Shown here in pieces: positions 8,101 through 25,313 of a stretch of DNA of 28,489 nucleotides; position 1 is the first letter of the stretch, and each line of letters opens with the position of its first letter. Below the pieces are notes generated by a model that did not search any database, had not been told where the DNA came from, and was given only the letters and a program-made list of their open reading frames with translations. Location of the stretch: positions 1-28,489 of the IMG/VR virus record IMGVR_UViG_3300033571_006811, one strand, 5' to 3'. Origin of the DNA: a virus. Both the position numbers and the translations under genes were made by a program.

Positions 8101-8603
8101 CGACAGAACCATCACCGCCAAGCACTGATCAATTAAAAATAAATTACGGATCTAGTTTAGATTCGATCAAATCAATCAGTGATGAAATAATTTATCATCC
8201 TGTAAAATATAAAGTTTTATTCGGTTCTAAAGCAGATCAGAAATTACAGGCTACATTTAAAGTGGTTAAAAATCCAACGCAGTCAATTAATGATAACGAC
8301 CTAAAAGTTAGAATCATATCAGCAGTGAATACGTTTTTTGATATTAACAATTGGGACTTTGGCGACAGGTTTTATCTCAGCGAACTAGTCACTTATGTAA
8401 TTAATTCCGTGACCCCGGACGTAAGCAATATGATCATAGTGCCAAAACAATCAGGTCAAGTATTTGGCAGTTTATTTGAAATTCAAAGCAGATCCGATGA
8501 GATTCTTATCAGCGGAGCAACAGTTGACGATGTTGAAATAGTTACAGCTATTACAGCAAACGAAGTTAGAGCAGATGTTAATTCTATTGTATCGAGTACC
8601 TAA
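5184..8603 (+). CDS. 6: Baseplate wedge protein gp6 (enlarged)
   Basis: A 1139-residue protein. The N-terminus (about residues 38-90: RVMITYLRENYPEDFNDYIE, then ALIDAVAFLGQSLAFRIDLA, then ERKESVLRLARMLGYNP) is the conserved gp6 start. The C-terminus (about residues 993-1125: NNWDFGDRFYLSELVTYVIN near residue 1056, IIVPKQ, FGSLFEIQS, DEILISG) is the conserved gp6/gpJ-like wedge end. Gp6 dimers form the continuous ring that holds the wedges around the hub and changes shape at contraction. T4 gp6 has 660 residues, so the middle is expanded by several hundred. That middle holds an Asp-rich loop (residues 818-829) resembling a thrombospondin-3-type calcium site. A Shine-Dalgarno-like AGGGAAG precedes the start. 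Confidence 0.93.
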   Translation: MTTTARQNNLILNQDWTRIYQTFKNADFKSYDFENLRRVMITYLRENYPEDFNDYIESSEYLALIDAVAFLGQSLAFRIDLASRENFIELAERKESVLRLARMLGYNPKRNKPAAGLLKFTSISTTESLVDSNGKNLAQQIISWNDPTNTNWLEQFIVVLNASMASNTEFGRSQGSATIQGIPTEQYRFNSISTDVPIYSFSKTVAGRAMVFEVVSTAFKNAETPYEEAPVPANQLGYIYRNDGSGPGSANTGFYMMFKQGSLELADFSIDVPTTNEKISVDSTNINNDDVWLFKLSSSGAQLEEWTQVSNLVGNNIAYNSISQNIRNIYAVQTKESDRIDLVFADGVYGNLPQGSFRVYYRVSNGLSYIVASNELRGISVSVAYLNKQGIRHVATIGLALQSSVSSAASSEDTDTIRVNAPALYYTQNRMITAEDYNLAPLSSSQDIVKIKSINRTSSGISRNFEIIDASGKYSSVTVFADDGYIYKKESEKTQSFKFASRVDIINYIKQAYEVLIDQDYVYNYYLTKFDKILFGDTNIRWKSVTTDVNLSTGYFYNFIDDTKLKVGSYSTNSLKYLTKDALIKFAPPEGYAFKNGKLVTYNEGDPYQTTQLWTKAVLAVGDGTSSGTGILPNGNGPISFSDVIPSEAIAVQIVPKFVNDLPPALENEMVNQIYQNLNFGVRYDIATTSWKIVSSSNANFSDNFSLGKTGDTTDNNLDTSWLIAFVRDADQYLIRIRAIEYVFGSVEQNRFYFDASEKQYNDQLGKVVKDQVKVLGINTNKDNTSSLNLDYTFEISDTIKYEDGFESSTEILVSFQDSDDDGVIDNPDSFINVVGEDVNLNYLFFKETADAYGNVYDELVDTDTTPIRIIKQQADFTSFTTWPDGTAISNGDLVYFYDSTEDRVMSVNTSSNILELQNTYKASVGRKNLKFQYIHNASVNRRIDPSSSNIIDIFLLTRSYDTAFRTYLAGGSTEPSPPSTDQLKINYGSSLDSIKSISDEIIYHPVKYKVLFGSKADQKLQATFKVVKNPTQSINDNDLKVRIISAVNTFFDINNWDFGDRFYLSELVTYVINSVTPDVSNMIIVPKQSGQVFGSLFEIQSRSDEILISGATVDDVEIVTAITANEVRADVNSIVSST

Positions 8604-8605
8604 AG

Positions 8606-11600
8606 ATGGCAGACAAAATATTTCCAAAAAGCGGTTTACCTATTAGAAGATCGGTAGAACTATTACCACAGATTTTTCAAACAACTACTAATGACAAATT
8701 TATGTCAGGGGTTGTTGATCCTTTAATACAACCAGGAGTTTTACAAAAAACTGTAGGTTACATTGGAAGAAGATATGGTAAGACCTATAGCGGTAAAGAC
8801 ATATATCTTAACACAGATCAAACTCTTCGCAGCAGATATCAATTAGAACCCGGTGTCGTAATCAAGAACCAAGACACCATTGAAGGATTTTATGACTATC
8901 TTGATTTTAAAAATCAACTGAAATTTTTTGGAAACGAAAACGAAAGAGATGACTTAACTACTAGCCAAGAACACTATTCTTGGAATCCTCCTATTGACTG
9001 GGATAAGTTTATTAATTACCGAGAATACTATTGGGAACCATCTGGTCCGCTGAGAGTACAGGTTGCCGGACAATCTAAGTCTATAGTTAGTTCGTATAAA
9101 GTTTCTTTAGGATCTGCGTATTCATTCATATTCACTCCTGATGGATACACAAATAATCCTTTGGTAACGCTATATCGAGGACAAACTTATAAATTTAAAA
9201 TAGATGCTCCTAACGAAGGATTTGTAATTAGAACTAACTATGATGTTGGAACACTATATTACAGACCCGAACTACCATATTCCAAAGGGCAGACAACAAT
9301 ATTCAACGGAAAGGTATGGAAAGCCAAAGTTGACATTGCTGCAGGAGATGGCAGTACGATCACAACAGATTCTCAAGATTGGGAATATGTTTCTTTAGTA
9401 TCGGTGGGCACCGCTTCTGATTATAACAAGGGTGTAACTAATAATAGAATTGAAAATGGAACATTGATATTTGAAGTTCCATTTGATGCGCCCGATGTGT
9501 TGTATTATCAGAGCGTGATTGATCCTAATAAATTTGGTCAATTTATAATTTCAAATATTGAATCCAATACCGACTTAGATGTAGAAAAAGAGATTCTTGG
9601 AAAATCGCAATACACTAGCAGTAATGGTATTGAATTTTCTAATGGAATGATTATAGAATTTACTGGATCGGTTACACCTGAAAAATATGCCTCTGACGGT
9701 TGGTTAGTTGAAGGAGTTGGAGAAAAAATCTCATTAATTAGATTTACAGATTTAATAGTTCCTATAATTTCAAAGACCGTTCCTGAAGTGTTATTTGATA
9801 ATGAAGGATTTGACACGCAGCCATTTGATGATGCTAGTCAGTATCCCGGACAGAAAGATTATATTACTATCAATAGAAGTAGTCTAGACAAAAATCCGTG
9901 GAGTCGATATAATCGATGGTTTCACAGATCAGTACTTGAAAATGCATATAAGTTGAGAGGCCAAGATTTTCCAGCCTCGGAAGATGCAAGAGCAAAGAGA
10001 CCTATCATCGAGTTTGTTTCTAATTTACGATTGATAAATCATGGTATAAAAGCCAAGGAAGCTGTGGACTTTGTAGACAGCTATACTACTGATGCATTTT
10101 CAACTATTGAGGGCAGTTTAGGTTATAACATCGATGGAGAATTTTTATTTGAAGGTGCCCGCATCTTAGTAATTGCCGATTCTGATATATTAGCGAATAA
10201 TAAAATATATCAAGTTGAGTTTATTACACACAACAATAGAAAACAGATACACTTAAGAGCCACTGAAGACTCTAATCCAATTCTTGGCGATTCGGTTATT
10301 GTAAGACGAGGAAAAGAATACGGCGGAGTTATGTTCCATTATAATGGTTCTAGCTGGGTCTCTAGTCAAAGTAAAACATCTGTTAACCAATCACCGAAGT
10401 TTGATGCTTATGATGAAAATGGAATAAGTTTTTCAAATAAAGAATATTATCCCACTACAACATTTACAGGTACTGAAATTTTATCTTATAAAGTTGGCAG
10501 TAGCGTTTCGGACGTTGAATTAGGATTCAGCCTAAGCTATCTTAATATTGACAATGTGGGAGATATACAGTTTAATTGGAATTGGGAAACTGATAACTTT
10601 TACTATACAGTAGATCAAGAAGCATTTTCAAAATCTATTTCTACAGGCTTTTATCAAATTGGCGAAAATATGGCCAATGGTTGGATTAAAACTGATAACT
10701 CTTATCTACAACCGATCATTGATAGTGCGGTGATTAGTCAATCAACAAATTCGATCTCTTTAAAGACTGTTGACTGGAGCCTGGTTTCTGAAGATACATT
10801 ATTAAAAATCAATTTTTATCTTAACGGAATACAATTTACAGATTCTTATACACGAAGCGGTTCGACTTTTACATTTGATAATAAAACATTTTCTGAGAAC
10901 GATGTAGTTTCAGTTAAAATAATAACTGATTTACCTCCTGATGAAGGATATTATGAAATTCCGGTAGGACTTGAAAAGAATCCGTTGAATCAAACTTTAG
11001 AAACATTCACCCTTGGACAGGCTATTGATCATTTATTAACTGCTGTTGAATTTAAAGAAGACTTTGTCGGAGAGTTGCCTGGAGTTTCTAATCTACGAGA
11101 TATTGTTGACTATCAAAAATACAGTAAACGTTTCTTAAAACATTCTGGATTAACTCCACTTGCGATTAATTTATTAACTGATAAAACTTCTAATATTATA
11201 AAATCAATTCGGTATGCTAAAAAGTCTTATACTGATTTTAAAAATAACTTTTTACAAAAAGCAACTGAAATAGATTTCAATGAAAACACAGCAGATTTTG
11301 TTGATGATATCATTAACGAACTAACAAAAACTAAATCCGAAAGAAGCCCTTTTGCAGATTCGGACATGGTTGGCTCTGGTGCTTACACATCTATTGATTA
11401 CACAGTTGATGATGTTGGAACTAATACATTTGCATTATCAGAAAAGTTTGGATTAGATGCATTAAGTAGAAAGGCTGTTTATATCTACATAAACGACCAG
11501 CAGTTATTATACATGAGAGATTATGAGTTTAACTCAACGTTTGGTTTCTTAATTCTAAAAGTTGAGTTAACCAGAGGAGATCAAATCCAAATCCGCGAAT

Positions 11601-14600
11601 ATGTATCGACTGCATATAATCATATTCCGCCTACTCCTACAGCGATGGGGATGTATAAAAAATATACTCCGATTAAATTTTTAGATGATACCTATGTCGA
11701 ACCTACATGGGTAATACAAGGTCATGACGGCAGCATCACAGTTGCCTATGATGATTACAGAGACGATGTGTTATTAGAATTAGAATATAGAATCTATAAT
11801 AATATCAAAGTTACTTATGACAGAGATATATTTGACATAGACTCTGTTGTCGGAGGCTACTATTTTAACAGCAGTACATATTCTAAAAATCAACTTGATA
11901 ACATAGTTGTTCAAGAATTTCTAAAATGGGTGCAAAACACCAATATTAATTATACTTTAAACGAATATTTTGACAGTGAAAATTCTTTCACCTATACATA
12001 TTCTAATATGGCAGATCCCGCAGGTACGGAAAACTTGCCTGGTTGGTGGAGAGGCGTGTATCAGTGGTTCTATGATACTGACAGACCACATCGCTGTCCT
12101 TGGGAAATGCTAGGCTTTTCAGAACAACCAGATTGGTGGGAAAGTGAGTACGGTCCTGCTCCATATACTAACGGAAACCTGTTATTGTGGGAAGATCTCA
12201 GAGATGGTATTATTCGTCAAGGAGACCGTGCTGGCACATATGACAGATATAAACGATCTACAATTATGTCGCACATTCCTGTAGACGGAGATGGAAATTT
12301 ATTAAGCCCATTAGATTCAAACCTAGCACAAAATTTTAGCCTAATCAATAACAGAGGACCGTTTGTATTAGGTGATATTAGCCCAGTCGAATATGCATGG
12401 AGATCAAGTTCAGAATGGCCGTTTGCTGTGGTCATGGCAATGTCATTATTAAAACCATTTGAGTTTATCAATGATAGCTTTGATATTTCAAAGACAAAGA
12501 TCAACATTATAAATCAAACAGTAAATGCAGAAACAAATCTATTTGTAACTCCTGCTGATATAATGCTTCCTGGTGTGAGTGCGGATTTAACATTTGGATT
12601 AGTGAAATATCTAACAGGGTATCTAAAATCAAGAGGTTTAGATCTTGCTGAGTACGAATCTAAATTACAAAATTTAAATGTTGCATTATCAAATAGACTG
12701 GCAGGCTTTGCAGATAAAGAACAACAGAAATATCTTTTAGATAGCAAGAGTCCCAAGTCGTCTACAAGTAATATCTTTATACCTCAAGAAAATTATGATA
12801 TTATTTTTAATGTAAGTTCGCCCATTGCCAGCTTGTCTTACAGTGGTGTAATTGTTGAAAAAGTTGAAGGGGGTTGGGTTCTTACAGGTTATGATAATGT
12901 TCATCCTTACTTCAATTATCACGAGGCCAGCCCCAATAAGGGAGATCCGATCATTACGGTTGGTGGCGTAAGTGAAGAATTTGTTGATTGGTCGCAAGAT
13001 ACAACATATAACAATGGTAGAATAACACGCTATAGAAATGACTTTTATAGGGCATTGAAAACTCACATATCAACAGCTGAGTTTGATAAAACACTATGGA
13101 AAAAATTACCAAACATCCCTGTAGTTGGCGGAGTTGAAGCTCAGCGAAGAAGATCATTTAATACACTTAATCCTCAGAAATTAGTCTACGGAACCAAGTT
13201 AACCTCGATTCAATTAGTGGTAGATTTTCTATTAGGGTATGAAAATTATTTGATATCTCAAGGATTTATTTTTAATAGTTTTGATCCTACAATTAAATCA
13301 GCAGCAAATTGGTTAACATCTTCTAAAGAGTTCATGTACTGGACTACTCATAATTGGGCCGTTGGGTCATTAATAACCTTAAGCCCAGCGGCTGAAAAAA
13401 TAGATATTACTATTCCTGTTGGAGTTGCTGATAATTTATTAGATGGATTTTATGATTATCAGGTTTTGAAAAGCGATGGTAAGGTATTACCTATCGCAAA
13501 TATTAATGTTAATAGGGGTTTTCAAAACATTACAATCGAAACAGTTAATACTACTAACGGAATTTATTTCTTAAAAATTTATTTTGTTCTTAAAGAACAC
13601 GTAGTAGTATTCAGCGATAGAACAGTATTCAACGATGTCATATATGATAAAACAACAGGATATCGCCAAGAGAGAATCAAAAATCAAGGATTTGTAACCA
13701 CCGACTGGGACGGAGATTATACAAGCCCTGGATTCTTGTTTGATAATGTAAACATTCAGAACTGGCAACCTTTTACGGATTATAGATCTGGAGACATTGT
13801 TTCTTATAGAAGTTATAATTGGACAAGCCTGTCAAATCAAATAGGTTCTGAAACCTTTAATGATGCATACTGGTCTAAACTCGATAGCACTCCGGAAAAG
13901 CAACTGGTTTCAAATTTTGATTATAAGATTAATCAATTTGAAGATTATTATGAAGTTTCCGCAGACGGATTAGGAAATAGCCAACGAAGTCTTGCTAGAC
14001 ATTCTATCGGTTACCAACCTCGTGAATACCTACAAAATCTAGCAGAAGATCCTGTAACACAATTTCAATTATATCAGGGTTTCATCAGAGAAAAAGGAAC
14101 CAACAATGCTGTAACTAAGGTGTTTAATAAACTCAGCAATTCAACATCTGGTAGCATAGAACTTAGAGAAGAATGGGCATTTAGAGTCGGACGCTTAGGC
14201 GGAGTTGAACAATTACGTGAAGTTGAGATGACATTATACAAAGATAGATTTGTAATAAATCCTCAACCAATAATTATTTCTACAGAATTACCAGATTCTG
14301 TTATTGATCAATATTATAGAGTTCTCAAGACAGACTTTACAATTGATCCGTTGAGATATTCAACAGACATAAACCCAACAACGACTGATTCGCTGTTATC
14401 TAGGGTTCCTGGATATGTTAAAACAGATCATGTAGATTTCATTGTTTCGACTAGAGATTCGATACTAGATCTAGACATCGAAAATTTTGAAGAAAATGAT
14501 CATGTATGGATAACATTTGATCAATATTCTTGGACGGTCCTTCGATATAATGAATCCCCAATTTTAGTTATAACAAACATAACAAAAGAAAAAACCAAGG

Positions 14601-17600
14601 TAACAATTGAAGTAGGAAGATTCCACGAATGTAATGTTGATGATATCATTGGTATCAAAGACATTGAAAATCTAACAGGTTTTTATAAGATTGTTTCTGT
14701 TACTCCTAGAACTGTGACAGTTGAAGTTTCGGCTAGCGCCAAAGAACCAGGATGGGACGGAAGTTCAATAGTCAACTTGAAATTGTTTACCAAAGCAAGG
14801 TTTGCCAGCTATGAAGATATAGGTCCTCAACAAGCGGCGTTATTAACAACTGGCTCAAAATTATGGATCGATGACAATTCAAGTAACGGCTGGGAAGTTG
14901 TACAAAAAACAAAACAATTTATTATTAAGGAACTGGTTGATCCCGGTATTGCCGAACCAACACATCTAGGAACAAAAACACTTTATAATTCTCTAACACA
15001 ACAGACAATCGCTAGCATACCCGATACTGGATATGTAATGATATACGGTTCTGTAGTAAGCGGACTTTCAGTTTTTCAGGTATTAACTCCGGCAGAAAGC
15101 ATAAGATCAAGCGTGACCGGATCATTTGGTCGAGCAATGGCTCTCAGCCCAGACGGAACACAGCTAATTGTAGGTTCCCCTGCAGCTGGATTCCTTAGCA
15201 GTTATTACAAAGGAACTTTTGATCCTTCAACAGCATATCAACCAAATGAAATAGTCCAGTGGGATAATCAACTATGGGTAGCACAAGTTGCTTTAACAAC
15301 TCCTCCATATCCATCGTCGATATCTACCGTCTGGTTACCTCAAGGAATTATTCCGGTCACAACTTCTGGAACTAGCACAGGTTTCACAAATCAAGGAATA
15401 ATTTCCATATATAAATGGACTGGACAGCGTTGGCAAATTACTGGATCGTACCTAAGCCCTCGCCCATCAGCTAACGAAACATTCGGATCTGAGATTACAA
15501 TTAGTCAATCTGGTACAACATATTATGCTTCTATTGCGGCCAAAGGTGCATTTGGTAGCAAAGGAAGAGTATATGTCTTTAAAGGATCCACACTAGGCGA
15601 CGGGTCAGTAACCTGGGAAATTCTTTCGATCGATAGCAACAACTTTGCTTTGCCTTTGCAAATTGCTTTTGATTCTGACGGATCAAGTGTAAACGCCGAT
15701 GTTGAAATAATCAAAGACGGAGACGAGTTTGGAACCGCATTGGCTACCAGTGGTGACGGAACAGTATTAGTTGTTGGTGCACCAAACAGCGACGGACAAT
15801 ATTTTGAAAATTATAGAGGATTATGGAAATCTGATGTTGCTTATCAACAAGACGATGTAGTGAAATACGAAGACAACTACTACAAAGTATCCGACTCTTC
15901 ATCAGTGATTGGAATAGATCCAAGCAATGCAGGTTGGGAAGATGTTGGAGATAGCAGTGCCCCAGCATCAGGAAAAGTATTTGTTTACAAAAAAGATGTT
16001 GACGACAAATATAACCTAATACAAACTATCGACGCAGGTTCGCTGGTACTAGTAGACGACACTCCATCAGTCGTTAATTCAAGAGCAGTTCAAACGTCAG
16101 CCATTGATTATTCGATAACATTAAAAAATACTACCGGAATAATAGTAAACATGCCGATCCTGTTTACTGGTACATCGTTTGGCGGACTGATCTCCGGAAC
16201 AACATATTACGTTAAAGAGATCCTTCAATTCGGTGTTAATGGAAAGATAAAAGTTAGCAGAACTTTTGGCGGCAATGTATTAGCCCTTACAACATCTACA
16301 GGATCACTAGAAGTCACTGCTGGCGGAACACCCGACATAAACGTTGGAGATCAATTTGGATACTCAGTAGACCTAGACTATTCGGGTTCTACATTGATTA
16401 TTTCAAGTCCTAGGGCAGATATTAATTTTCAAAATCAAGGATCTGCGTATGTGTTCACAACAGCCAGTTTAGATTCGATTGAATATAGATTAAAACAAAA
16501 ATTAGAAAGTTTTGAAAAATATCCTAATGAATATTTTGGACAGAGTGTTTCTATCAGTTCAACGGGTGAACGTGTTGCTATAGGTGCAAAAAATACTCCT
16601 TTCAAAGTTTCATCTAGATTAGATGTAGATAAAGGCACAACTTTTGATCAAGGAAGAACTAGATTTGTTGAAAGAAATGGATTTGCCGGAGCGGTTTATG
16701 TTTACGAGAAAAAACAAGGAATATATTTCTTAGTTGAAAAATTAGAAACAGATTTTTCTCCGTACGAATCTTTCGGAGCCACAGTTGATTGTACCGACTC
16801 GGTGATTGCAGTTGGTTCTCCCGATTATCGAGCTCCTGGCAGTCACTTAAACAGCATTGCATTTGACGGACCGATGATTGGTACTGTAAGATTGTTTTCT
16901 AAAAATCCAGAAGTTAATTCTTGGAATCTTTTGGAAACTCAAAAATCTTTAGTTGATACAAGAAAGATAAAAAGTATTTCTTTATACGATACAGTTAACA
17001 ATGTTAAGATACAAGACATCGACTATATTGATCATGCAAAACTAAAAATTCTTAACGTTGCCGAAAAAGAAATTAAATTTAAAACATTATACGACCCAGC
17101 GACTTACACCATTGGAACTGACGAGCAAGCAGTTGATGCGACAACAGCATGGGCTGAGAAAAACGTCGGTAAATTGTGGTGGGATTTATCAACAGTTAAA
17201 TGGAAATACTACGAACAAGGCGACACTGCGTATAAGACCAGTAACTGGAACGGACTTGTAGAAGGTTCAAGTGTTGATGTCTATGAGTGGGTACAGACAA
17301 GATTATTGCCAAGCGAATGGTCGATAGTAGCAGATACCACAGAAGGATTAGCATTAGGAATCTCCGGACAGCCTAAGCATCTTGATGACACAGTATATTC
17401 TATTAAAGAATTGTATAATTCAGTAACCGGTGAAATTTCTGGAACTTTATATTTTTATTGGGTTAAAAATAAAACTGTAGTACCAGAAAACATGCCAGGC
17501 CGAGAAATTTCTGCTGCATCGGTCGCTGCATATATTAGAGATCCGATAACCACAGGTGTGGCACACTTGGCGTTAATTGATTCTGATAAGTTTATTGCTT

Positions 17601-20600
17601 ATAACTTCAAGTCGATTATCACAACAGATACAGTTGTGATGAATATTGAATATTTTAAAAATAGCAAACAATTAAACCCAATTCATAACGAATATCAATT
17701 ATTAGTTGAAGGTGATCCTAATAGTACACCAGCACCGTCATTAGAAACCAAGTGGTTAGATAGTTTAATAGGAGTTGATGCACAAGGCGGAGCAGTTCCC
17801 GATCCTAGCTTGCCAGCTAAACAAAAATATGGTCTAAGTTTTAGACCAAGACAAAGCATGTTTGTAAATCGAGCTCCGATATTAAAAATAATAGTAACAA
17901 AGGTAAATGAGTTTTTATTAACTGCACCGTGGGCTGATGTTATTGAAGTTGAAGATCTAAACTTAATCGATCTTCCGCCCGACTCTGCTCTGAATTTATA
18001 CGACCAGTCAGTTGATACATATGAGGCTTTACAGACAGTTGGTACGACCAGAATCAAACAGGCACAGCTAAGAGTTAATATTTCTAACAATCAAATATCA
18101 TCAATCGATATTCTTGAAGCTGGGTTTGGTTATCGTACTATTCCTAATATAGAAATCTATGGCGACGGAGTCGGAGCTACAGCAGTTGCTACACTAGATA
18201 ATCAAGGAAGAATTAGTCAGGTAACCGTTACTAACAAAGGTAAAAAATACAGCGAAGCCACAGCCACAATAAGACAGTTTGCAGTATTAGTAACCTCTGA
18301 TGAAACTACTAAAGGATTTTGGGGAATTTATTCTTGGGACGACGAACGTCAAACTTTTTATAGAAGTAGAGCGCAGGCATTCGATACTTCTAGATATGGA
18401 TATGCTTATGATTGGTGGGCCGAGGGATATTCTGTAAAAACTAGAATTACTACTGAAATTCCTGATATCAGTTATGAACCATTGATAACTACAAAAATTG
18501 GTGATCTTATCAAGGCCAAACAATACGGCAACGGCGACTGGGCAGTCTTTGAAAGAGTATCTAACGATACAGAATTTTTCAAGAGATATCTATTAGTTGG
18601 TCGAGGTACAGGAACAATACAATTATCAGACTCTCTCTGGAACAACACAATGTCAGGAATTGGTTTTGATAACACAGTTTCTTTTGACAACGATTCTTAT
18701 GACATCGATAACAGCAAAGAATTAAGAATCATTCTAGAACGTATTAAACAATATTTGTTTATTGGCGAATATAGAAATGAATGGAATAATTTATTCTTTA
18801 CTTCTATTAGATATGCTCTTGCTGAGCAACAGTATGTTGATTGGGTATTTAAAACAAGTTTCTTAAATGCTACACATCTTGTCGGAGAATTACGAGAAAG
18901 ACTTAACTATAAAAATGATAATCTTGAAAGTTATCAAGATTATCTACACGAAGTTAAACCTTATAGAACCACAATTAGAGAATTCATTAGCAATTATGAA
19001 AAAATTGATAGAGTAGGATCTGCCAATACTGATTTTGACCTTCCTCCTACTTTTTCAGTTACTGAAGGAAAAATTGTACCGGTTACAACTAGTGATGAAA
19101 CATCACAGGCATATCCGTGGAAGTGGTGGCTTGACAACCATACCTATGAAATTATTTCAATCGAAGTGTCAAATCCTGGCAGCGGTTATATCCAGTCGCC
19201 TAATGTGTTAATTACCGGAGACGGTATTAACGCTTCTGCTAAAGCATATATTTCAAATGGAAAAGTTTCAGGAATAACTCTATTAAATTCAGGATCTGGA
19301 TTTACAGCAGCACCAACTATAACACTAGTTGGAGGAAACGGATCTAGCGGAGACAATGCCACAGCAGTTGCAATTATTGGGAATTCAAAAGCAAGAACAT
19401 TTACATTAGGAATAAAATTTGATAGATTTACAAAGACAGGACATCTTTCTTCTCTAGACAACTATCAACAATTTTATGCCAACGGGTATAGTGCAACATT
19501 TGAATTAAGTTATGCTCCTACTAGAGATAAGAGTCAGATACGAGTATTGAAAAATAATCAAGTGGTGTTGAACAGTGAATATAAGATTACTCTGTTTAAG
19601 TCTAGTACTGATACATTTTCTCTGTTAAAAGGAAAATTAATATTCACCGAAGTACCGGCCGGTCCAGACACAGCAACAGGGTATTTAGGAGATTTGATTG
19701 AAATTTACTATGTAAAGAATGATGAACTATTAGACAGTGTTAATAGAATTAACAAGTATTATTATCCTCTTGCAGGAATGAAAGGCAAAGACCTTGGACA
19801 GTTAATGACTGGCATAGACTTTGGAGGAGTTCAACTTCAAGGCACAACATTCGATGTCACCGGCGGTTGGGATGCATTACCTTGGTTCACAGACAGTTGG
19901 GATAGTGTTGAATCTAGTGCTGATTTTTATGTTATCTGTGATGGAAGTACATCGTTTGTAACACTTCCATTCACTCCTAGTACTGGTCAAGAAATAAATG
20001 TCTATCTAAAAAGATCGGGCGTTGGGCTGGGTCGTTCACCGAATACTATTGAAACATTAGGAGATCCAACTTCGCCTGAAGTAGTATATGAACCTATTGT
20101 CCCAGAACAACCAACAATCAGAATAGATGATCCTTATTTCTTTACTGAGAATGATTCATCTACATCGCCAAATCCTAACGCACAAATGCCAACATTTGTA
20201 GGAGACGGGGTTACACGAATAATTGAAATTGGCCAATACATTCAAACTAATGCAGGAGATACATTGATTTTCCGCCCAGCCGAAAGTGACGGATCTGTTA
20301 CTATCAATGATACTAATTTGTTAGATACTAAACTTAGTGGTGGAACATTAGCATCAATGGGTCCAGCGTATGTTACCGCAACAGGAACAAATGCTGAAGA
20401 CATAATCATTGACGGTGGAAAATTAATTTCACCAGATCAAGTTCCAGCTCCAGAAGAAAATATTCCAGGACAGGTATTAGAAAGTGTAAGCATCAAGGTG
20501 TTTACAACAGATACAGATGGAGCCGTTCCTTTACAGACAACTGTTCTTTCTGGTAATGGTGCTGATAATGTATTTTCTATAGGATTAAACATTTTTGAAT

Positions 20601-22510
20601 CTAATTCTTTATTGGTATATGTTGATAAAGTTAGAAAAGAATACCAAGGAACTGATACTTTAGATTACTCTATTGACTTTGTATCTAATGAAGTATTGTT
20701 TAACAATACTCCTCCGATCGGTTCTCTTATTGAGATAATTGCATTCGGCATTGGCGGAGTTGCTTTGTTAGATTATCAGGAATTTATTGCAGACGGTGAA
20801 ACTAGTTTATTTCTAACTAATGCAAATTTTAAAGATACAGAAATGGTTTCTGTGTCAGTAAATGGAGTTTATCAGGATACTGGTTTTATCAATAGTACAG
20901 GAGTAGTTGATACTAACGAAAAAACTCTAATACAGTTTGGAACAACGCCACTGGCTAATTCTTTAATCAAGATATTGTCAATTGGATCGGGCGCAACCTC
21001 TACGGGTATTGTAAGAGTACATTCTCAAGAATTTGAATTTGAAGGAAGTACTAGAACTTTTGAAATCAGCGATTTGAGCATACAGGCTAACGGATCAATC
21101 ACATCTTCTGTAGTAGTTGAAGTTAACGGTACAGTTCTCAAAGGAGTTGATACTATTGCGTCGACATACGACGGGATTACAAATACATTCGTTATTGGTA
21201 CAGATCCTTTCGAAGGCGCAGGAGCGGTATTGTCTTCTAATATAAAAGTTTTTATCAATAACGAACTCATTGAGTTTGTTACCGATTACATTTATACAGG
21301 ACAAACTAAAGAATTAATAATCACAAAGGTTCTATCCGTCGGAGATTCAATTAGGATTGAAAATGACTTTAGAGCAGAATACACAATATCAACAGATTCA
21401 ACTGTGACATTGTTATCTATAGATCCTGATGTAACATTATCTTCCACCAACGAAACTGACAACGATATTATCAAAGTCACTTGGTTTAGCGAATATCCGT
21501 CATTGGAAATGATATCAGACGAATACACCGGCGGAAAAATAAACTATCAATTAAATTCCATTCCGCTTGATGCTAGTTATGTATGGGCATACAAAAATGG
21601 CCAGAGACTTGTTCAAGATAAAGATTTTCGTATTTCTTTACCAAGGGGTGTTTTATATCTAACAGATTCAAGTACTACTTCAGATATTATCAACATAATA
21701 TCATTTGGTTCTAAGATTTACAAAGAGCCTAGTGGATACGAGATTCATAACGATATGTTAAACGGCTATTCGTTTAAGAGATATAGTGTTGATCCAAAAG
21801 TAACGTTGGCTACAGAATTAACATACTATGCTCAAGAAATAGTTGTTAGTGATGCATCGAATCTTGCAGAACCTATAAGAGAAAGAAATATCCCCGGAAC
21901 TGTATTAATCAACAATGAAAGAATCGAATATCTACAAAAGAATGGAAATATCCTAGCTCAGTTGAGAAGAGGAGTCACTGGCACCTCAATTGCAACAGTA
22001 CACCCTGTGGGTAGTTTTGTGGTAGATGTTAGCAAAGCTGAAACAATTCCTTACAAAGAAAATCAAGATAAATTAGACTTTATCAGTGATGGAAGTACGC
22101 TGTTAGTTGGCCCATTAGATTTTATTCCTACAAAATCTTCTAGATCATGGACCACTGCATCAGCGGTTACAATTCCAGATGAGTATGGTCCTTGTGATGA
22201 ATTTGAAGTGTTTGCAGCAGGAGCAAGATTAAGAAAAGATCCATTGCAATCATATAATGATGCATTAGGAGCATCTAGCCCGTCCGCTGATATTATTTTA
22301 GAAGCTGAGTTTTCAGTAGATGGAGTTAGCCCGTATGTTCGATTAACTTCGAAGCTTCCTGCAGGAACCCGAATTTCTATCATTAAAAAGGTAGGTAATG
22401 TATGGTATGAAAGAGGCAGCACAACTATCAGTAAGGGTATTACATTGCTAGAAAATGAAACTCCTATAGCTAAATTCATAGCTAAAAAGACTACTAGACT
22501 GCCCGAATAA
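8606..22510 (+). CDS. Giant multidomain baseplate protein in the gene 7 position
   Basis: One uninterrupted 4634-codon frame, starting two bases after the gp6 stop. The N-terminus (RRSVELLPQIFQTTTNDKF, VGYIGRRYGKTY) and several Trp-rich blocks recall the very large virion proteins of marine T4-like phages: GWWRGVYQWFYDTDRPHRCP near residue 1146, HEVKPYRTTIREFI at 3448, and LINNERIEY with AQLRRGVTG near 4440-4460. By position after gp6 it should replace T4 gp7 (1032 aa), the wedge initiator, but homology to gp7 is not proven. Apparent domains in order are: five short Trp modules (about 217-263, 1462-1500, 1720-1758, 2206-2246, 2407-2447); an FG-GAP-like propeller (about 2170-2770) enclosing the last two; glycine-rich GSGY repeats (about 3164-3224 and 3514-3592); and fibre-type beta repeats (about 3866-4370). 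No enzyme motif, signal peptide or membrane helix was recognised. It probably projects from the baseplate rim and binds cell-surface glycans. Confidence 0.8.
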   Translation: MADKIFPKSGLPIRRSVELLPQIFQTTTNDKFMSGVVDPLIQPGVLQKTVGYIGRRYGKTYSGKDIYLNTDQTLRSRYQLEPGVVIKNQDTIEGFYDYLDFKNQLKFFGNENERDDLTTSQEHYSWNPPIDWDKFINYREYYWEPSGPLRVQVAGQSKSIVSSYKVSLGSAYSFIFTPDGYTNNPLVTLYRGQTYKFKIDAPNEGFVIRTNYDVGTLYYRPELPYSKGQTTIFNGKVWKAKVDIAAGDGSTITTDSQDWEYVSLVSVGTASDYNKGVTNNRIENGTLIFEVPFDAPDVLYYQSVIDPNKFGQFIISNIESNTDLDVEKEILGKSQYTSSNGIEFSNGMIIEFTGSVTPEKYASDGWLVEGVGEKISLIRFTDLIVPIISKTVPEVLFDNEGFDTQPFDDASQYPGQKDYITINRSSLDKNPWSRYNRWFHRSVLENAYKLRGQDFPASEDARAKRPIIEFVSNLRLINHGIKAKEAVDFVDSYTTDAFSTIEGSLGYNIDGEFLFEGARILVIADSDILANNKIYQVEFITHNNRKQIHLRATEDSNPILGDSVIVRRGKEYGGVMFHYNGSSWVSSQSKTSVNQSPKFDAYDENGISFSNKEYYPTTTFTGTEILSYKVGSSVSDVELGFSLSYLNIDNVGDIQFNWNWETDNFYYTVDQEAFSKSISTGFYQIGENMANGWIKTDNSYLQPIIDSAVISQSTNSISLKTVDWSLVSEDTLLKINFYLNGIQFTDSYTRSGSTFTFDNKTFSENDVVSVKIITDLPPDEGYYEIPVGLEKNPLNQTLETFTLGQAIDHLLTAVEFKEDFVGELPGVSNLRDIVDYQKYSKRFLKHSGLTPLAINLLTDKTSNIIKSIRYAKKSYTDFKNNFLQKATEIDFNENTADFVDDIINELTKTKSERSPFADSDMVGSGAYTSIDYTVDDVGTNTFALSEKFGLDALSRKAVYIYINDQQLLYMRDYEFNSTFGFLILKVELTRGDQIQIREYVSTAYNHIPPTPTAMGMYKKYTPIKFLDDTYVEPTWVIQGHDGSITVAYDDYRDDVLLELEYRIYNNIKVTYDRDIFDIDSVVGGYYFNSSTYSKNQLDNIVVQEFLKWVQNTNINYTLNEYFDSENSFTYTYSNMADPAGTENLPGWWRGVYQWFYDTDRPHRCPWEMLGFSEQPDWWESEYGPAPYTNGNLLLWEDLRDGIIRQGDRAGTYDRYKRSTIMSHIPVDGDGNLLSPLDSNLAQNFSLINNRGPFVLGDISPVEYAWRSSSEWPFAVVMAMSLLKPFEFINDSFDISKTKINIINQTVNAETNLFVTPADIMLPGVSADLTFGLVKYLTGYLKSRGLDLAEYESKLQNLNVALSNRLAGFADKEQQKYLLDSKSPKSSTSNIFIPQENYDIIFNVSSPIASLSYSGVIVEKVEGGWVLTGYDNVHPYFNYHEASPNKGDPIITVGGVSEEFVDWSQDTTYNNGRITRYRNDFYRALKTHISTAEFDKTLWKKLPNIPVVGGVEAQRRRSFNTLNPQKLVYGTKLTSIQLVVDFLLGYENYLISQGFIFNSFDPTIKSAANWLTSSKEFMYWTTHNWAVGSLITLSPAAEKIDITIPVGVADNLLDGFYDYQVLKSDGKVLPIANINVNRGFQNITIETVNTTNGIYFLKIYFVLKEHVVVFSDRTVFNDVIYDKTTGYRQERIKNQGFVTTDWDGDYTSPGFLFDNVNIQNWQPFTDYRSGDIVSYRSYNWTSLSNQIGSETFNDAYWSKLDSTPEKQLVSNFDYKINQFEDYYEVSADGLGNSQRSLARHSIGYQPREYLQNLAEDPVTQFQLYQGFIREKGTNNAVTKVFNKLSNSTSGSIELREEWAFRVGRLGGVEQLREVEMTLYKDRFVINPQPIIISTELPDSVIDQYYRVLKTDFTIDPLRYSTDINPTTTDSLLSRVPGYVKTDHVDFIVSTRDSILDLDIENFEENDHVWITFDQYSWTVLRYNESPILVITNITKEKTKVTIEVGRFHECNVDDIIGIKDIENLTGFYKIVSVTPRTVTVEVSASAKEPGWDGSSIVNLKLFTKARFASYEDIGPQQAALLTTGSKLWIDDNSSNGWEVVQKTKQFIIKELVDPGIAEPTHLGTKTLYNSLTQQTIASIPDTGYVMIYGSVVSGLSVFQVLTPAESIRSSVTGSFGRAMALSPDGTQLIVGSPAAGFLSSYYKGTFDPSTAYQPNEIVQWDNQLWVAQVALTTPPYPSSISTVWLPQGIIPVTTSGTSTGFTNQGIISIYKWTGQRWQITGSYLSPRPSANETFGSEITISQSGTTYYASIAAKGAFGSKGRVYVFKGSTLGDGSVTWEILSIDSNNFALPLQIAFDSDGSSVNADVEIIKDGDEFGTALATSGDGTVLVVGAPNSDGQYFENYRGLWKSDVAYQQDDVVKYEDNYYKVSDSSSVIGIDPSNAGWEDVGDSSAPASGKVFVYKKDVDDKYNLIQTIDAGSLVLVDDTPSVVNSRAVQTSAIDYSITLKNTTGIIVNMPILFTGTSFGGLISGTTYYVKEILQFGVNGKIKVSRTFGGNVLALTTSTGSLEVTAGGTPDINVGDQFGYSVDLDYSGSTLIISSPRADINFQNQGSAYVFTTASLDSIEYRLKQKLESFEKYPNEYFGQSVSISSTGERVAIGAKNTPFKVSSRLDVDKGTTFDQGRTRFVERNGFAGAVYVYEKKQGIYFLVEKLETDFSPYESFGATVDCTDSVIAVGSPDYRAPGSHLNSIAFDGPMIGTVRLFSKNPEVNSWNLLETQKSLVDTRKIKSISLYDTVNNVKIQDIDYIDHAKLKILNVAEKEIKFKTLYDPATYTIGTDEQAVDATTAWAEKNVGKLWWDLSTVKWKYYEQGDTAYKTSNWNGLVEGSSVDVYEWVQTRLLPSEWSIVADTTEGLALGISGQPKHLDDTVYSIKELYNSVTGEISGTLYFYWVKNKTVVPENMPGREISAASVAAYIRDPITTGVAHLALIDSDKFIAYNFKSIITTDTVVMNIEYFKNSKQLNPIHNEYQLLVEGDPNSTPAPSLETKWLDSLIGVDAQGGAVPDPSLPAKQKYGLSFRPRQSMFVNRAPILKIIVTKVNEFLLTAPWADVIEVEDLNLIDLPPDSALNLYDQSVDTYEALQTVGTTRIKQAQLRVNISNNQISSIDILEAGFGYRTIPNIEIYGDGVGATAVATLDNQGRISQVTVTNKGKKYSEATATIRQFAVLVTSDETTKGFWGIYSWDDERQTFYRSRAQAFDTSRYGYAYDWWAEGYSVKTRITTEIPDISYEPLITTKIGDLIKAKQYGNGDWAVFERVSNDTEFFKRYLLVGRGTGTIQLSDSLWNNTMSGIGFDNTVSFDNDSYDIDNSKELRIILERIKQYLFIGEYRNEWNNLFFTSIRYALAEQQYVDWVFKTSFLNATHLVGELRERLNYKNDNLESYQDYLHEVKPYRTTIREFISNYEKIDRVGSANTDFDLPPTFSVTEGKIVPVTTSDETSQAYPWKWWLDNHTYEIISIEVSNPGSGYIQSPNVLITGDGINASAKAYISNGKVSGITLLNSGSGFTAAPTITLVGGNGSSGDNATAVAIIGNSKARTFTLGIKFDRFTKTGHLSSLDNYQQFYANGYSATFELSYAPTRDKSQIRVLKNNQVVLNSEYKITLFKSSTDTFSLLKGKLIFTEVPAGPDTATGYLGDLIEIYYVKNDELLDSVNRINKYYYPLAGMKGKDLGQLMTGIDFGGVQLQGTTFDVTGGWDALPWFTDSWDSVESSADFYVICDGSTSFVTLPFTPSTGQEINVYLKRSGVGLGRSPNTIETLGDPTSPEVVYEPIVPEQPTIRIDDPYFFTENDSSTSPNPNAQMPTFVGDGVTRIIEIGQYIQTNAGDTLIFRPAESDGSVTINDTNLLDTKLSGGTLASMGPAYVTATGTNAEDIIIDGGKLISPDQVPAPEENIPGQVLESVSIKVFTTDTDGAVPLQTTVLSGNGADNVFSIGLNIFESNSLLVYVDKVRKEYQGTDTLDYSIDFVSNEVLFNNTPPIGSLIEIIAFGIGGVALLDYQEFIADGETSLFLTNANFKDTEMVSVSVNGVYQDTGFINSTGVVDTNEKTLIQFGTTPLANSLIKILSIGSGATSTGIVRVHSQEFEFEGSTRTFEISDLSIQANGSITSSVVVEVNGTVLKGVDTIASTYDGITNTFVIGTDPFEGAGAVLSSNIKVFINNELIEFVTDYIYTGQTKELIITKVLSVGDSIRIENDFRAEYTISTDSTVTLLSIDPDVTLSSTNETDNDIIKVTWFSEYPSLEMISDEYTGGKINYQLNSIPLDASYVWAYKNGQRLVQDKDFRISLPRGVLYLTDSSTTSDIINIISFGSKIYKEPSGYEIHNDMLNGYSFKRYSVDPKVTLATELTYYAQEIVVSDASNLAEPIRERNIPGTVLINNERIEYLQKNGNILAQLRRGVTGTSIATVHPVGSFVVDVSKAETIPYKENQDKLDFISDGSTLLVGPLDFIPTKSSRSWTTASAVTIPDEYGPCDEFEVFAAGARLRKDPLQSYNDALGASSPSADIILEAEFSVDGVSPYVRLTSKLPAGTRISIIKKVGNVWYERGSTTISKGITLLENETPIAKFIAKKTTRLPE
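9254..9394 (+). other. Trp module A of the giant protein (carbohydrate-binding-like)
   Basis: Residues about 217-263. The pattern is Y-x-x-G-Q-T-x-x-x-x-G-K-V-W-K-A-K, followed after about 25 residues by D-W-E-Y-V. This is the layout of small CBM5/12-type chitin- and glycan-binding domains (Y..GD.V.Y....Y.A......W). It is the most N-terminal and most divergent of five such segments. Glycan binding is inferred from pattern only. Confidence 0.4.
12041..12500 (+). other. Conserved Trp-rich core block of the giant protein
   Basis: Residues about 1146-1298 contain eight tryptophans in the first 60 residues or so, plus DRPHRCPWEMLGF (from residue 1159), SEQPDWWESEYGPAPYT and NNRGPFVLGDISPVEYAWRS. 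I recognise this block as one of the most conserved parts of giant virion proteins in marine T4-like phages. It has no function known to me. Its density of aromatic residues and its Cys/His content make it a good anchor for homology searches. Confidence 0.5.
12989..13105 (+). other. Trp module B of the giant protein (carbohydrate-binding-like)
   Basis: Residues about 1462-1500: W-S-x-x-T-x-Y-x-x-G-x-I-T-x-Y-x-x-x-F-Y-R-A, then F-D-x-T-L-W-K-K-L. It fits the CBM5/12-like layout closely, with one aromatic strand and a closing Trp at residue 1498. Confidence 0.5.
13763..13879 (+). other. Trp module C of the giant protein (carbohydrate-binding-like)
   Basis: Residues about 1720-1758: W-x-x-x-T-D-Y-R-S-G-D-I-V-S-Y-R-S-Y-N-W, then F-N-D-A-Y-W-S-K-L. 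This is the cleanest match of the five to the Y..GD.V.Y....W......W pattern. Confidence 0.55.
15221..15343 (+). other. Trp module D, inserted between propeller blades 1 and 2
   Basis: Residues about 2206-2246: F-D-P-S-T-A-Y-Q-P-N-E-I-V-Q-W-D-N-Q-L-W, then V-A-Q and a closing Trp at 2243. It matches the same small carbohydrate-binding-like pattern as modules B and C, but lies inside the propeller between the first and second FG repeats. Confidence 0.5.
15824..15946 (+). other. Trp module E, inserted between propeller blades 3 and 4
   Basis: Residues about 2407-2447: W-K-S-D-V-A-Y-Q-Q-D-D-V-V-K-Y-E-D-N-Y-Y, then K-V and a closing Trp at 2444. It is followed within the same insertion by a further beta-rich segment (about residues 2501-2576, with FTGTSFGGLISGTTYYVKEI) that I have seen as a repeat unit in marine phage virion proteins. 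Confidence 0.5.
18095..18277 (+). repeat. GSGY-type glycine-rich repeat, first copy, in the giant protein
   Basis: Residues about 3164-3224. The unit runs I-x-x-I-x-I-x-x-x-G-x-G-Y, then P-x-I-x-I-x-G-D-G-x-G-A-x-A-x-A, then a G-x-I-x-x-V strand starting the next half-repeat. Such GSGY repeats are common in marine phage fibres and probably fold as beta-solenoid turns. Confidence 0.55.
19145..19381 (+). repeat. GSGY-type glycine-rich repeat, second copy, in the giant protein
   Basis: Residues about 3514-3592 hold two consecutive units. Each is NPGSGY or NSGSGF, then P-N-V-L-I-T or P-T-I-T-L-V, a Gly-rich turn, and an A-x-A strand. The unit is clearly the same as at 3164-3224, from which it is separated by about 290 residues that include the HEVKPYRT block. 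Confidence 0.6.
20201..21712 (+). repeat. Array of fibre-type beta repeats near the C-terminus of the giant protein
   Basis: Residues about 3866-4370 hold five or six divergent units of about 70-110 residues. Each opens with an acidic-Gly turn and an aromatic strand (GDGVTRIIEIG, GNGADNVFSIG, ADGETSLFLTN). Each continues with a V-x-V-(N/D)-(G/K)-x-x-(Y/L) strand and closes with a G-S-L-I-x-I-I-x-F/I-G strand. The layout resembles repeat domains of podovirus and myovirus tail fibres. Identity between units is low, so this is old duplication. Confidence 0.55.
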
Positions 22511-23183: not shown

Positions 23184-25313
23184 ATGCCATATCAAATTAA
23201 ATTTACAGATAGCAATAATAAGACTGATCTTACAGTTTACGATAATACGTCAAATTTTGATACCAGCTTGGTATTTCCGGGTAGAAATCAAACAGGCTAT
23301 GGGCAAATAATTGCAGAGAACTTTTTACATCTGTTGGAAAATTTTGCCAACGATGAAGATAACAAACCAGTCAACCCTGTCGAAGGACAGTTGTGGTATG
23401 ACACTACAAATGGAATATTACAGATATGGGATAACTCGAACTGGAAAGCGGCTTCCAATATCCAGAAAGGTCCAACAGAACCTTCTGTTGAAACAGCAAA
23501 GGTTGGAGAATTATGGGTTGATACTACTAATCAACAGTTGCGTATTTTCTCAGGCGGCGAAAACGGCCGCTGGATTTTAGTAGGTCCTAGTGAAAGCTCA
23601 ATCGACGGATTGAGATATGGACCAACAGTAGAACGTATTTCTGACAGCGATAACTTTACTAGAAGTGTGCTGGTATTTTATATTGCTGATATTCCTGTTA
23701 TTATTTTCAGTAAAGATACTTTTACTCCTAAAGTTATTTTAAATGGTTTTCCTATTATTAAATCTGGAATCAATATTAACGTTCCGAGCTTATCCGAAGC
23801 AGTTGATTTTGAAGGCGGCCTTCTTCCTAAATTGTACGGCACAGCTACAGCCGCCGACAGTCTTATTGTTAATGATGAAGTAATTAATTCTGGATTCTTT
23901 TTAAGATCAGATACAGCCAACACAATATCAGCACCTGGTTTTAATATTGCTAATAATACAGGTATCACACTAGGGGTTGATAGAACATTTACATTAGCCA
24001 CAACTGCTACATCTGCAAGAATTTTTAATTCACAGACCGGTAGTAGTATTGATCTTCAAACTAATATTGATGGCAGGGCAACAGCTATTGTTCGAATAAT
24101 CGACAATCGAGTAGGGATTAATAATGAAACTCCAGACGAGGCATTGGATGTTATTGGTAATATAAAAACTTCTGGCACAATCGTTATTAACAATGATGCA
24201 GAAAGCACAAGTCTAAGTGACGGTAGTTTAAGAACTATTGGCGGAATATCTATTGCAAAAAATATTCGAGTAGGTACAGATCTTGAAGTTTCTGGAACAT
24301 CGTCACTGTCAACAACTATTCCTAAGACCACCGACACTTATAATCTAGGAACATCAGGCAAACGTTGGAAAGAAATCAGAGCAAAGACAATCGTTGCTGA
24401 AACAATTTCTGGGGTATTAGATGGAAATATCAGCGGTAATGCTAATACTGCCACTACTCTTAAAAATGTTACTACCTTTCAGCTTGCCGGTGACGTAGTC
24501 AGTACTAACGTAATTAGATTTGACGGACAGGTAGAATCTAATACAAAGATTTTTAATACACAGCTAACCGCCAATATTATTTCAGCGAAACCCGAACCAT
24601 CTCCAGGAGTTTCTAAATCCAGCGACTATGTTTTAACATATAGAAGCGTAGGTGCTACTGGTCTTTACAAGCAGACACGAGATACTTTTGTTGGAGATTT
24701 GGGGGTCCCAATTGGTGGTATCTTACCGTATGCTGGCACAAATGTGCCATACGGCTTTTTATTATGTGACGGCAGCGAAGTTGAAATTGCAAAATATCAA
24801 AATTTATATGACACTATTGGAGTGACTTACAATGGGTCTACAGCACTAATCGGATTTAATACATTTAGACTTCCCGACCTACGAGGTCGATTCGCACTAG
24901 GTCGTGACAACATGGACAATGGACTCACAGTTCCTCTGGCTGTGGGATCCTATGTTGATGCTGGCGGAGGCACAGCAGGTAGAGTCCCAGACATTAAAGC
25001 ACAAACTGTTGGCGGAGATGCTGGACAGAGTTCAGCAACATTAACATTGCCTAATTTACCAGAGCACACTCATACCATGAAAAATGGTACTACACAATAT
25101 TCAGCTGTTCGTGTAGACACTGCAATTAATCCTCCTGCAACAACAGGGTTAGGACCAACGGCACCGGGACAGGCACAGTACCTTCAAAACGCTGGCCCAG
25201 TTGAAACTCCATTCGGAACTTCATTAGGTCAACCTATTGGTATTATGAATCCTTATCTAACAATTAATTATATTATTAGATCTGGACCTCCTGCATTTAC
25301 TACTACAGCATAA
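23184..25313 (+). CDS. Tail-fibre protein with gp12-type tail-collar domain (paralogue 1)
   Basis: A 709-residue protein. Residues about 1-200 are a module shared with the two downstream genes: GYGQIIAENFLHLLENFAND, then two LWYDTTN...IWDN..W-type repeats, then FSKDTFTPK. The middle is fibre-like (VGINNETPDEALDVIGNI, DTYNLGTSGKRWKEIRA, GNANTATTLKNVTTFQLAGD). Residues about 508-640 are a phage tail-collar domain: PYGFLLCDGS (Cys528), FRLPDLRGRFALGRDN (from about 562) and LPEHTHT with His628/His630. The HxH recalls the metal-binding pair of the T4 gp12 short tail fibre. The protein probably forms a trimeric receptor-binding fibre held to the baseplate by the shared N-terminus. It starts two bases after the preceding stop. 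Confidence 0.85.
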   Translation: MPYQIKFTDSNNKTDLTVYDNTSNFDTSLVFPGRNQTGYGQIIAENFLHLLENFANDEDNKPVNPVEGQLWYDTTNGILQIWDNSNWKAASNIQKGPTEPSVETAKVGELWVDTTNQQLRIFSGGENGRWILVGPSESSIDGLRYGPTVERISDSDNFTRSVLVFYIADIPVIIFSKDTFTPKVILNGFPIIKSGININVPSLSEAVDFEGGLLPKLYGTATAADSLIVNDEVINSGFFLRSDTANTISAPGFNIANNTGITLGVDRTFTLATTATSARIFNSQTGSSIDLQTNIDGRATAIVRIIDNRVGINNETPDEALDVIGNIKTSGTIVINNDAESTSLSDGSLRTIGGISIAKNIRVGTDLEVSGTSSLSTTIPKTTDTYNLGTSGKRWKEIRAKTIVAETISGVLDGNISGNANTATTLKNVTTFQLAGDVVSTNVIRFDGQVESNTKIFNTQLTANIISAKPEPSPGVSKSSDYVLTYRSVGATGLYKQTRDTFVGDLGVPIGGILPYAGTNVPYGFLLCDGSEVEIAKYQNLYDTIGVTYNGSTALIGFNTFRLPDLRGRFALGRDNMDNGLTVPLAVGSYVDAGGGTAGRVPDIKAQTVGGDAGQSSATLTLPNLPEHTHTMKNGTTQYSAVRVDTAINPPATTGLGPTAPGQAQYLQNAGPVETPFGTSLGQPIGIMNPYLTINYIIRSGPPAFTTTA
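24705..25090 (+). other. Phage tail-collar domain of fibre paralogue 1
   Basis: Encodes residues about 508-636. Visible landmarks are the Pro-Tyr-Gly-Phe-Leu-Leu-Cys-Asp-Gly entry, the Leu-Pro-Asp-Leu-Arg-Gly-Arg-Phe core and the Pro-Glu-His-Thr-His-Thr motif. These are the three signatures of the collar domain family found in T4 gp12 and many lambdoid fibres. Confidence 0.88.

Follow-up and report, generated by a model that had tools for sequence, protein, structure and literature searches.

A predicted seven-bladed FG-GAP_2 propeller nested in a giant baseplate-region protein of large aquatic phages

The stretch of DNA analysed here, referred to below as the window, is the IMG/VR virus record IMGVR_UViG_3300033571_006811, with a length of 28,489 bases. 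Its main open reading frames lie on the plus strand and are arranged in the order of a myophage baseplate cluster:

485..784, plus strand, gp53-like protein, first in the baseplate-order series
Between the gp53-like and gp5-like hub reading frames, plus strand, virion protein of 776 aa
3116..4702, plus strand, gp5-like hub protein
4702..5142, plus strand, gp25-like protein
5184..8603, plus strand, gp6-like baseplate wedge protein (phrog_10646, E=4.6e-287)
8606..22510, plus strand, giant virion or baseplate-region protein of 4634 aa containing the propeller (phrog_10938 virion structural protein, E=7.5e-300)
3' of the giant reading frame, a 220-aa protein and then three fibre-like proteins

The giant reading frame directly follows the gp6-like one, an order that corresponds to the position of gp7 after gp6 in T4 and that is also found in relatives and isolates; the longer order gp25-gp6-giant-fibres is maintained in relatives. 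On both sides of the propeller, the scaffold is orthologous to the giant protein of PA5oct, Phosso, Atu_ph07, SCTP-2 and the RaK2/121Q group (24-29% identity), and the PA5oct homologue is annotated as detected by ESI-MS/MS. The giant was also considered as a T4 gp7-type wedge protein by sequence, and no such homology was found: profiles of residues 1-1000, 1000-1900 and 2766-3700 matched no phage baseplate chain among solved structures. Because the scaffold profiles miss T4 gp7 and the solved baseplate proteins, the label “baseplate” is based on the order of the genes and on homologues annotated as virion proteins. For the baseplate protein of the original prediction, support comes from the location next to the gp6-like gene and from the virion detection of a homologue, not from homology to a known wedge protein; we infer a location in the baseplate of the virion.

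Some neighbouring features deserve mention in their own right. The gp5-like hub protein (3116..4702) matches only the N-terminal part (positions 21-395 of 887) of the best “hub and tail lysozyme” family, and seems to lack the lysozyme domain. The three fibre-like proteins (23184..25313, 25332..27221 and 27243..28487) have related N-termini of ~100 aa (phrog_15511; ...GYGE..NENF..LLENFA...), which suggests, from sequence, that a tail attachment domain has been duplicated and that the proteins differ in their distal parts. Within the giant protein, residues 3131-3243 (about 17996..18334) and 3516-3615 (about 19151..19450) form GxGYxxxPxIxIxGxG repeat modules, which in Phosso and Atu_ph07 are greatly enlarged into arrays of ~1500 aa, just upstream of the position of the propeller hairpin described below.

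An FG-GAP-like, integrin-alpha-type propeller had been predicted in the giant protein from six Phe-Gly repeats, and this assignment was borne out by Pfam, by AlphaFold and Foldseek, and by a comparison with about 200 relatives. The six repeats are in frame in the 4634-aa protein, with the FG of the blades at residues 2174, 2293, 2375, 2584, 2644 and 2723; they have the proposed layout and lie above chance according to the Pfam score and a reversed-sequence control. The suggested search with FG-GAP and related profiles matched Pfam FG-GAP_2 (PF14312) to the propeller region with E=1e-19 and 70.9 bits, three times the curated cutoff of 23; the best stretch takes in blade 4, and all 51 of 51 aligned relatives match the same family. 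The classic FG-GAP profile (PF01839) stayed under its cutoff on the window (11.9 bits vs 22.1, E=0.22). In 121 non-redundant relatives, a blade profile built within the analysis gave 706 matches inside the site (6.5 per 1000 aa), compared with 11 outside it in the same proteins (0.027 per 1000 aa) and 3 on all 121 reversed sequences. The canonical calcium loop is, as anticipated, missing: the window propeller contains no D.[DN].[DN]G motif (DxDxDG-type), and in the 121 relatives the motif occurs 29 times vs 13.8 in shuffled sequences. The propeller is thus of FG-GAP type, belonging to FG-GAP_2 instead of the calcium-binding FG-GAP family. Its blades and the large insert between them are laid out as follows:

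14978..15085, plus strand, blade 0, degenerate and without FG (four strands in the model; canonical repeat in the relative L180)
15125..15454, plus strand, blade 1 (FG 2174) with a nested CBM5/12-like module (model strands, alignment)
15482..15622, plus strand, blade 2 (FG 2293), here without the CBM5/12-like module present in many relatives
15728..16030, plus strand, blade 3 (FG 2375) with a nested CBM5/12-like module (alignment, model)
16067..16327, plus strand, insert of ~87 aa between blades 3 and 4 (pLDDT about 35)
16355..16507, plus strand, blade 4 (FG 2584) (Pfam FG-GAP_2, alignment, model)
16535..16741, plus strand, blade 5 (FG 2644) (alignment, model)
16772..16939, plus strand, blade 6 (FG 2723), ending in a strand, SWNLLETQ, that overlaps with the hairpin's right half (alignment, model, empty-site comparison)

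The structure of the propeller was predicted with AlphaFold2 on a 51-sequence alignment, replacing a run on four sequences that was too shallow (pLDDT 50). The resulting model has a pLDDT of 77 and a pTM of 0.77, with most blade residues above 85 and low scores mainly restricted to the inserts. Counted from the secondary-structure string of the model, the strands fall into seven groups of four, that is, seven four-stranded blades. The proposed check by structure prediction and blade counting therefore recovered a propeller fold, and the count of six blades had to be revised to seven, the additional FG-less blade preceding the start originally assigned. The span of 15119..16915 holds the six FG repeats, and the domain as a whole is longer, about 14915..16939. 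The FG-less blade lies at about residues 2125-2160, where compact relatives such as L180 have a canonical FG-GAP repeat, QDFGYRVVARNDGRTAVVSAPGKGQGELHFLF, so that in compact relatives all seven repeats are explicit: both L180 and L206 have seven repeats, in L180 all canonical and within 455 aa. Among solved structures, Foldseek placed integrin alphaM first (E=2.1e-11), followed by many further integrin alpha chains, with a TM-score of 0.62, normalised to the target, for integrin alpha5; a sequence profile also lists integrin alphaM, weakly (E=0.019). The closure of the ring is a prediction of the model, supported by the full-length integrin matches.

One could still imagine that there is no propeller at all, and that a chance or degenerate FG pattern has arisen in a beta-rich tail protein. 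The poor four-sequence model and the sub-threshold PF01839 score on the window would fit such an explanation, but it is contradicted by the FG-GAP_2 match, by the deep-alignment model (pLDDT above 90 in 285 residues), by an integrin as the best fold match and by the near absence of blade-profile matches in reversed sequences. At the level of prediction it is already refuted, and we give it hardly any credence.

The boundaries of the propeller can be read from relatives in which the site is empty. We compared eight such sites (L230, PA5oct, L266, L267, L270, L287, L312 and L259), which defined the following junctions in the window:

14858..14914, plus strand, left half of a beta-hairpin, KLWIDDNSSNGWEVVQKTK, residues 2085-2103 (joined with the right half, it matches the uninterrupted hairpin of relatives that have no propeller)
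14915..16912, plus strand, nested insert with the propeller, 666 aa, residues 2104-2769 (junctions from the empty-site comparison)
16913..17005, plus strand, right half of the hairpin, beginning with SWNLLETQKSLVDTRKIKSISLYD (empty-site comparison)

In propeller-less relatives the hairpin is continuous, for instance GWAVYTYTEPGTWTRTRQQQDSIDITSISRTFIYN in L230 and AWTVYRYLSGNWLPYRQQEYKIDSSLLLDSALYN in L287, and in the window its strands GWEVVQK and SWNLLETQKSLVDTRKIKSISLYD are separated by 666 residues. A profile of the eight empty sites scores the joined flanks of the window at 43.1 bits vs 15.8 and 22.8 for the separate halves, and the joined flanks beat either half also in L236, L206 and L180. 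At the level of sequence comparison, the predicted propeller is thus nested, splitting a beta-hairpin of the giant protein. The sister lineages L230 (empty) and L236 (with propeller) differ by the insert, and in L227 (2648..4396) the place of the propeller in this hairpin of the orthologous giant is taken by a YHYH domain (PF14240, Pfam E=1.9e-30). Since the reading frame of L230 is intact without a propeller and L227 has the YHYH form, the scaffold works without the propeller. Two further candidates for replacement at this site were rejected. Neither the repeat arrays of Phosso, Atu_ph07 and L265 nor an insert in SCTP-2 that resembled a LamG lectin was counted, since both lie just upstream of the hairpin; for the SCTP-2 insert, moreover, Pfam gives only E=0.025. 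This region of Salicola phage SCTP-2 (L008, 12070..12852) is of some interest by itself, as a possible Laminin_G_3 lectin-like domain, below cutoff and with full-length coverage.

The distribution of the propeller was established by scanning IMG/VR with a propeller-free flank; the scans gave over 500 loci, and each time the best 80 were retrieved. Among the non-redundant giants with both flanks, 121 of 130 contain two or more blades and 112 of 130 five or more, fractions that are biased somewhat upward because the set also includes loci retrieved with the propeller as query. All carriers fall within one strongly supported clade of 123 rows, made up of IMG/VR phages, of which 121 carry the propeller; the only exceptions are L227 and L230. 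Pfam FG-GAP_2 was matched in 8 of 8 deep-branching carriers tested. A relative that a first profile had classed as propeller-less (L168) was reclassified, as Pfam FG-GAP_2 is found there at 26.8 bits. No FG-GAP propeller is present in the giant protein of any of the seven jumbo-phage isolates examined, all of which lie outside the clade. A further isolate-aimed scan yielded 31 new loci with both flanks, outside the tree, comprising 22 carriers and nine without a convincing blade pair. By parsimony, this pattern suggests one gain and two losses or replacements, with uncertain rooting among the long-branched isolates. Carrier contigs reach 289 kb, so at least some carriers are jumbo phages. All carriers are environmental contigs, and no isolate with a known host has the propeller in its giant protein. 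Three phage contigs among the relatives (L179, L180 and L181) are binned in bacterial MAGs that stand as GTDB genomes (Candidatus Pelagibacter, Porticoccaceae and Rickettsiales). A host inference from these bins was discarded, the three bins giving three inconsistent hosts; the assignments are probably binning errors.

The original prediction overlooked two CBM5/12-like modules in the loops of blades 1 and 3, as well as the insert of ~87 aa. The giant protein contains five such modules in all:

9254..9394, plus strand, outside the propeller (residues 217-263; CBM profile 44 bits)
12980..13108, plus strand, outside the propeller (residues 1459-1501; 43 bits; best Pfam CBM_5_12 stretch 1462-1491)
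13751..13894, plus strand, outside the propeller (residues 1716-1763; 49 bits)
15203..15346, plus strand, B-C loop of blade 1 (residues 2200-2247; CBM profile 31 bits; model strands E127-175)
15809..15952, plus strand, B-C loop of blade 3 (residues 2402-2449; CBM profile 28 bits)

Pfam CBM_5_12 (PF02839) scores 42.3 bits (E=7.6e-11) on the whole giant protein and 26.4 bits, vs a cutoff of 26.2, on the propeller span only (E=7.3e-6), and is matched by 48 of 51 relatives at E<=0.01. A phrog_5073 “tail fiber” match was dropped as evidence for the identity of the blades, as it aligns to a CBM-like module and not to the blades. The module at 13751..13894 is also conserved in propeller-less relatives, and PA5oct, Phosso and L230 likewise have modules at an upstream position. 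A third module, following blade 2, is present in many relatives but not in the window. The insert of ~87 aa is restricted to the window and the relatives closest to it, is absent from L014/L019 and most other relatives, and has a gap fraction of 0.92. Within the site, the 130 non-redundant giants have no CBM5/12-like module in 62 cases, one in 1, two in 10, three in 54 and four in 3. Because the compact, basal members L180 and L206 have none in the site, a plain ring probably came first and acquired the modules afterwards.

Insertions and deletions account for 16% of the propeller columns in the multiple alignment, vs 0.7% and 3.5% in the flanks, and the mean identity is 51% in the propeller vs 60% and 57% in the flanks. 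Pairwise local identity gives a larger gap (about 28-37% in the propeller vs 50-70% in the flanks), which in large part is due to the inserted modules. The idea of a hypervariable host-range domain was downgraded on the multiple-alignment values (51% vs 57-60%).

With the fold, the seven blades, the nesting, the empty and swapped forms of the site, the modular loops and the distribution documented by sequence and prediction, we propose, with a probability of roughly 0.6, that the FG-GAP_2 propeller in the giant virion protein of this large aquatic myophage is an adhesion-display platform whose loop modules bind a host glycan or glycoprotein. A closed ring needs both of its ends side by side, so that a hairpin turn is the right socket, into which the ring would be plugged with the scaffold left undisturbed. 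The exposed blade loops would bear small exchangeable modules, CBM5/12-like in blades 1 and 3 and in many relatives also in blade 2, and these would most likely bind a surface glycan or glycoprotein of the host where the baseplate contacts the cell. The propeller would thereby be exposed on the virion, bind the host surface, and provide adhesion at the baseplate in addition to that of the separate tail fibres. We favour this explanation because of the CBM-like loops, the wedge-adjacent gene, the contractile tail and the domain-replaceable site; the propeller probably serves the phage as a docking platform with which to grip its bacterial host.

Several observations speak against such a platform. 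Conservation of the propeller core is only slightly below that of its flanks, and where two scaffolds are 81-84% identical, their propellers share 77-79% identity, a divergence that is not as extreme as expected of a main host-range determinant. Exchange is rare in the clade, with only 2 of 123 members lacking the propeller, and the three downstream fibre-like genes could perform all host recognition. The main rival is a structural brace, in which the propeller is a rigid part of the baseplate that has no contact with the host and either braces the wedges or serves to hold an accessory protein or a tail fibre. A spacer of this kind would agree with the presence of the propeller in nearly all of the clade (121 of 123 non-redundant members), with the conservation of its core, which almost equals that of the scaffold, and with a gene-by-gene identity in close relatives that is no lower than that of the fibre genes; it is harder to reconcile with the intact L230 without a propeller, with the unrelated YHYH domain at the same site in L227, and with loops that gain and lose CBM-like modules. 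We consider it a serious but on balance unlikely explanation.

Binding to something other than the host appears improbable to us. Here, the CBM-decorated ring would attach to particle- or mucus-like polysaccharide in the water, or to sister virions, concentrating the phage where hosts grow. The CBM5/12-like modules in the propeller and in three other places of the giant protein could be taken in this sense, as could the fact that carriers are all environmental contigs, with no known-host isolate among the propeller-bearing giants. However, propeller-less relatives that infect Pseudomonas and rhizobia also have CBM5/12-like modules, which therefore need not mark a polysaccharide habitat. Returning to the adhesion platform, one could speculate, and we regard this as unlikely in its full form, that a wedge-region scaffold has been turned into an integrin-like receptor, with a plug-in propeller at a fixed hairpin site and exchangeable ligand-binding modules in its loops acting as a host sensor of the baseplate beside the fibres, perhaps coupled to the contraction switch.

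A near-universal fold in a large environmental phage clade, at one fixed site and with natural empty and swapped versions, would point phage biologists to a port in the baseplate region at which one adhesion domain can be exchanged for another. It also offers a direct test of whether baseplate wedges, and not only fibres, recognise hosts.

Among known systems, the jumbo phages PA5oct, RaK2/121Q-type, Atu_ph07 and SCTP-2 (phrog_10938 family) share the orthologous scaffold, but their giants have an empty hairpin or, just upstream, arrays or other domains, with no FG-GAP in the seven examined. A tblastn search with the window propeller gave no match among isolate phages; the family consensus matched nt-1, C48C1 and Phosso, with 5 FG-GAP_2 stretches in ORF127 of Vibrio phage nt-1, 8 in CDS0129 of Kyanoviridae phage C48C1 and 24 in gene 108 of Sinorhizobium phage Phosso. 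Viral fold matches include Cyanophage S-TIM5 (H6WG31) and a “hemagglutinin” of Agrobacterium phage Atu_ph07 (A0A2L0UZX4). Unlike the window propeller, the FG-GAP proteins of these five phages are encoded by separate genes, outside the giant gp6-adjacent protein, and the giant proteins of Phosso and Atu_ph07 themselves have no propeller. Two of the loci are noteworthy by themselves: Phosso gene 108 (L178) lies outside the baseplate cluster, and its very large hypothetical product has 24 or more FG-GAP_2 repeats, which may make up several successive propellers. In C48C1 (L177; 5325..9767 and 11330..14131), 8 FG-GAP_2 repeats are found in a protein of 1480 aa; close to it are a hub gene and a cadherin/Big-domain protein of 933 aa, an arrangement that looks like an adhesion gene cluster.

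The receptor-binding protein of Staphylococcus phage phi11 is reportedly a five-bladed propeller on the baseplate that serves host recognition; in contrast to the window propeller, it is a protein of its own rather than a nested part of a wedge-region protein, and its propeller is of a class other than FG-GAP. In agreement with the original prediction, we found no description of an FG-GAP propeller in a phage baseplate in the open-access literature. The fold is known, and FG-GAP_2 repeats already occur in giant viruses and, without having been remarked upon, in a few proteins of isolate phages; it is the nested, module-decorated plug-in in a conserved phage baseplate-region protein that appears to be undescribed.

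FG-GAP propellers are mainly known from integrins, bacterial adhesins and a few giant viruses. The bacterial and giant-virus FG-GAP_2 proteins (PF14312) belong to the same repeat family, which the window propeller matches above the curated cutoff, and the top viral fold matches include FG-GAP proteins of NCLDV; as far as annotated they are separate proteins, whereas the window propeller is nested in a baseplate-region scaffold. The integrin alpha propeller, which gives the best solved Foldseek matches, likewise has seven FG-GAP-type blades, but the window propeller has no calcium loops, about 10% identity to it, and a nested position in a phage virion protein. In some integrins (alphaM, alphaX and alphaL), a ligand-binding I domain is plugged into a loop of the propeller. 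The window shares this arrangement of a module in a propeller loop, with CBM5/12-like modules in place of the von Willebrand A-type I domain, a likeness that was probably reached independently.
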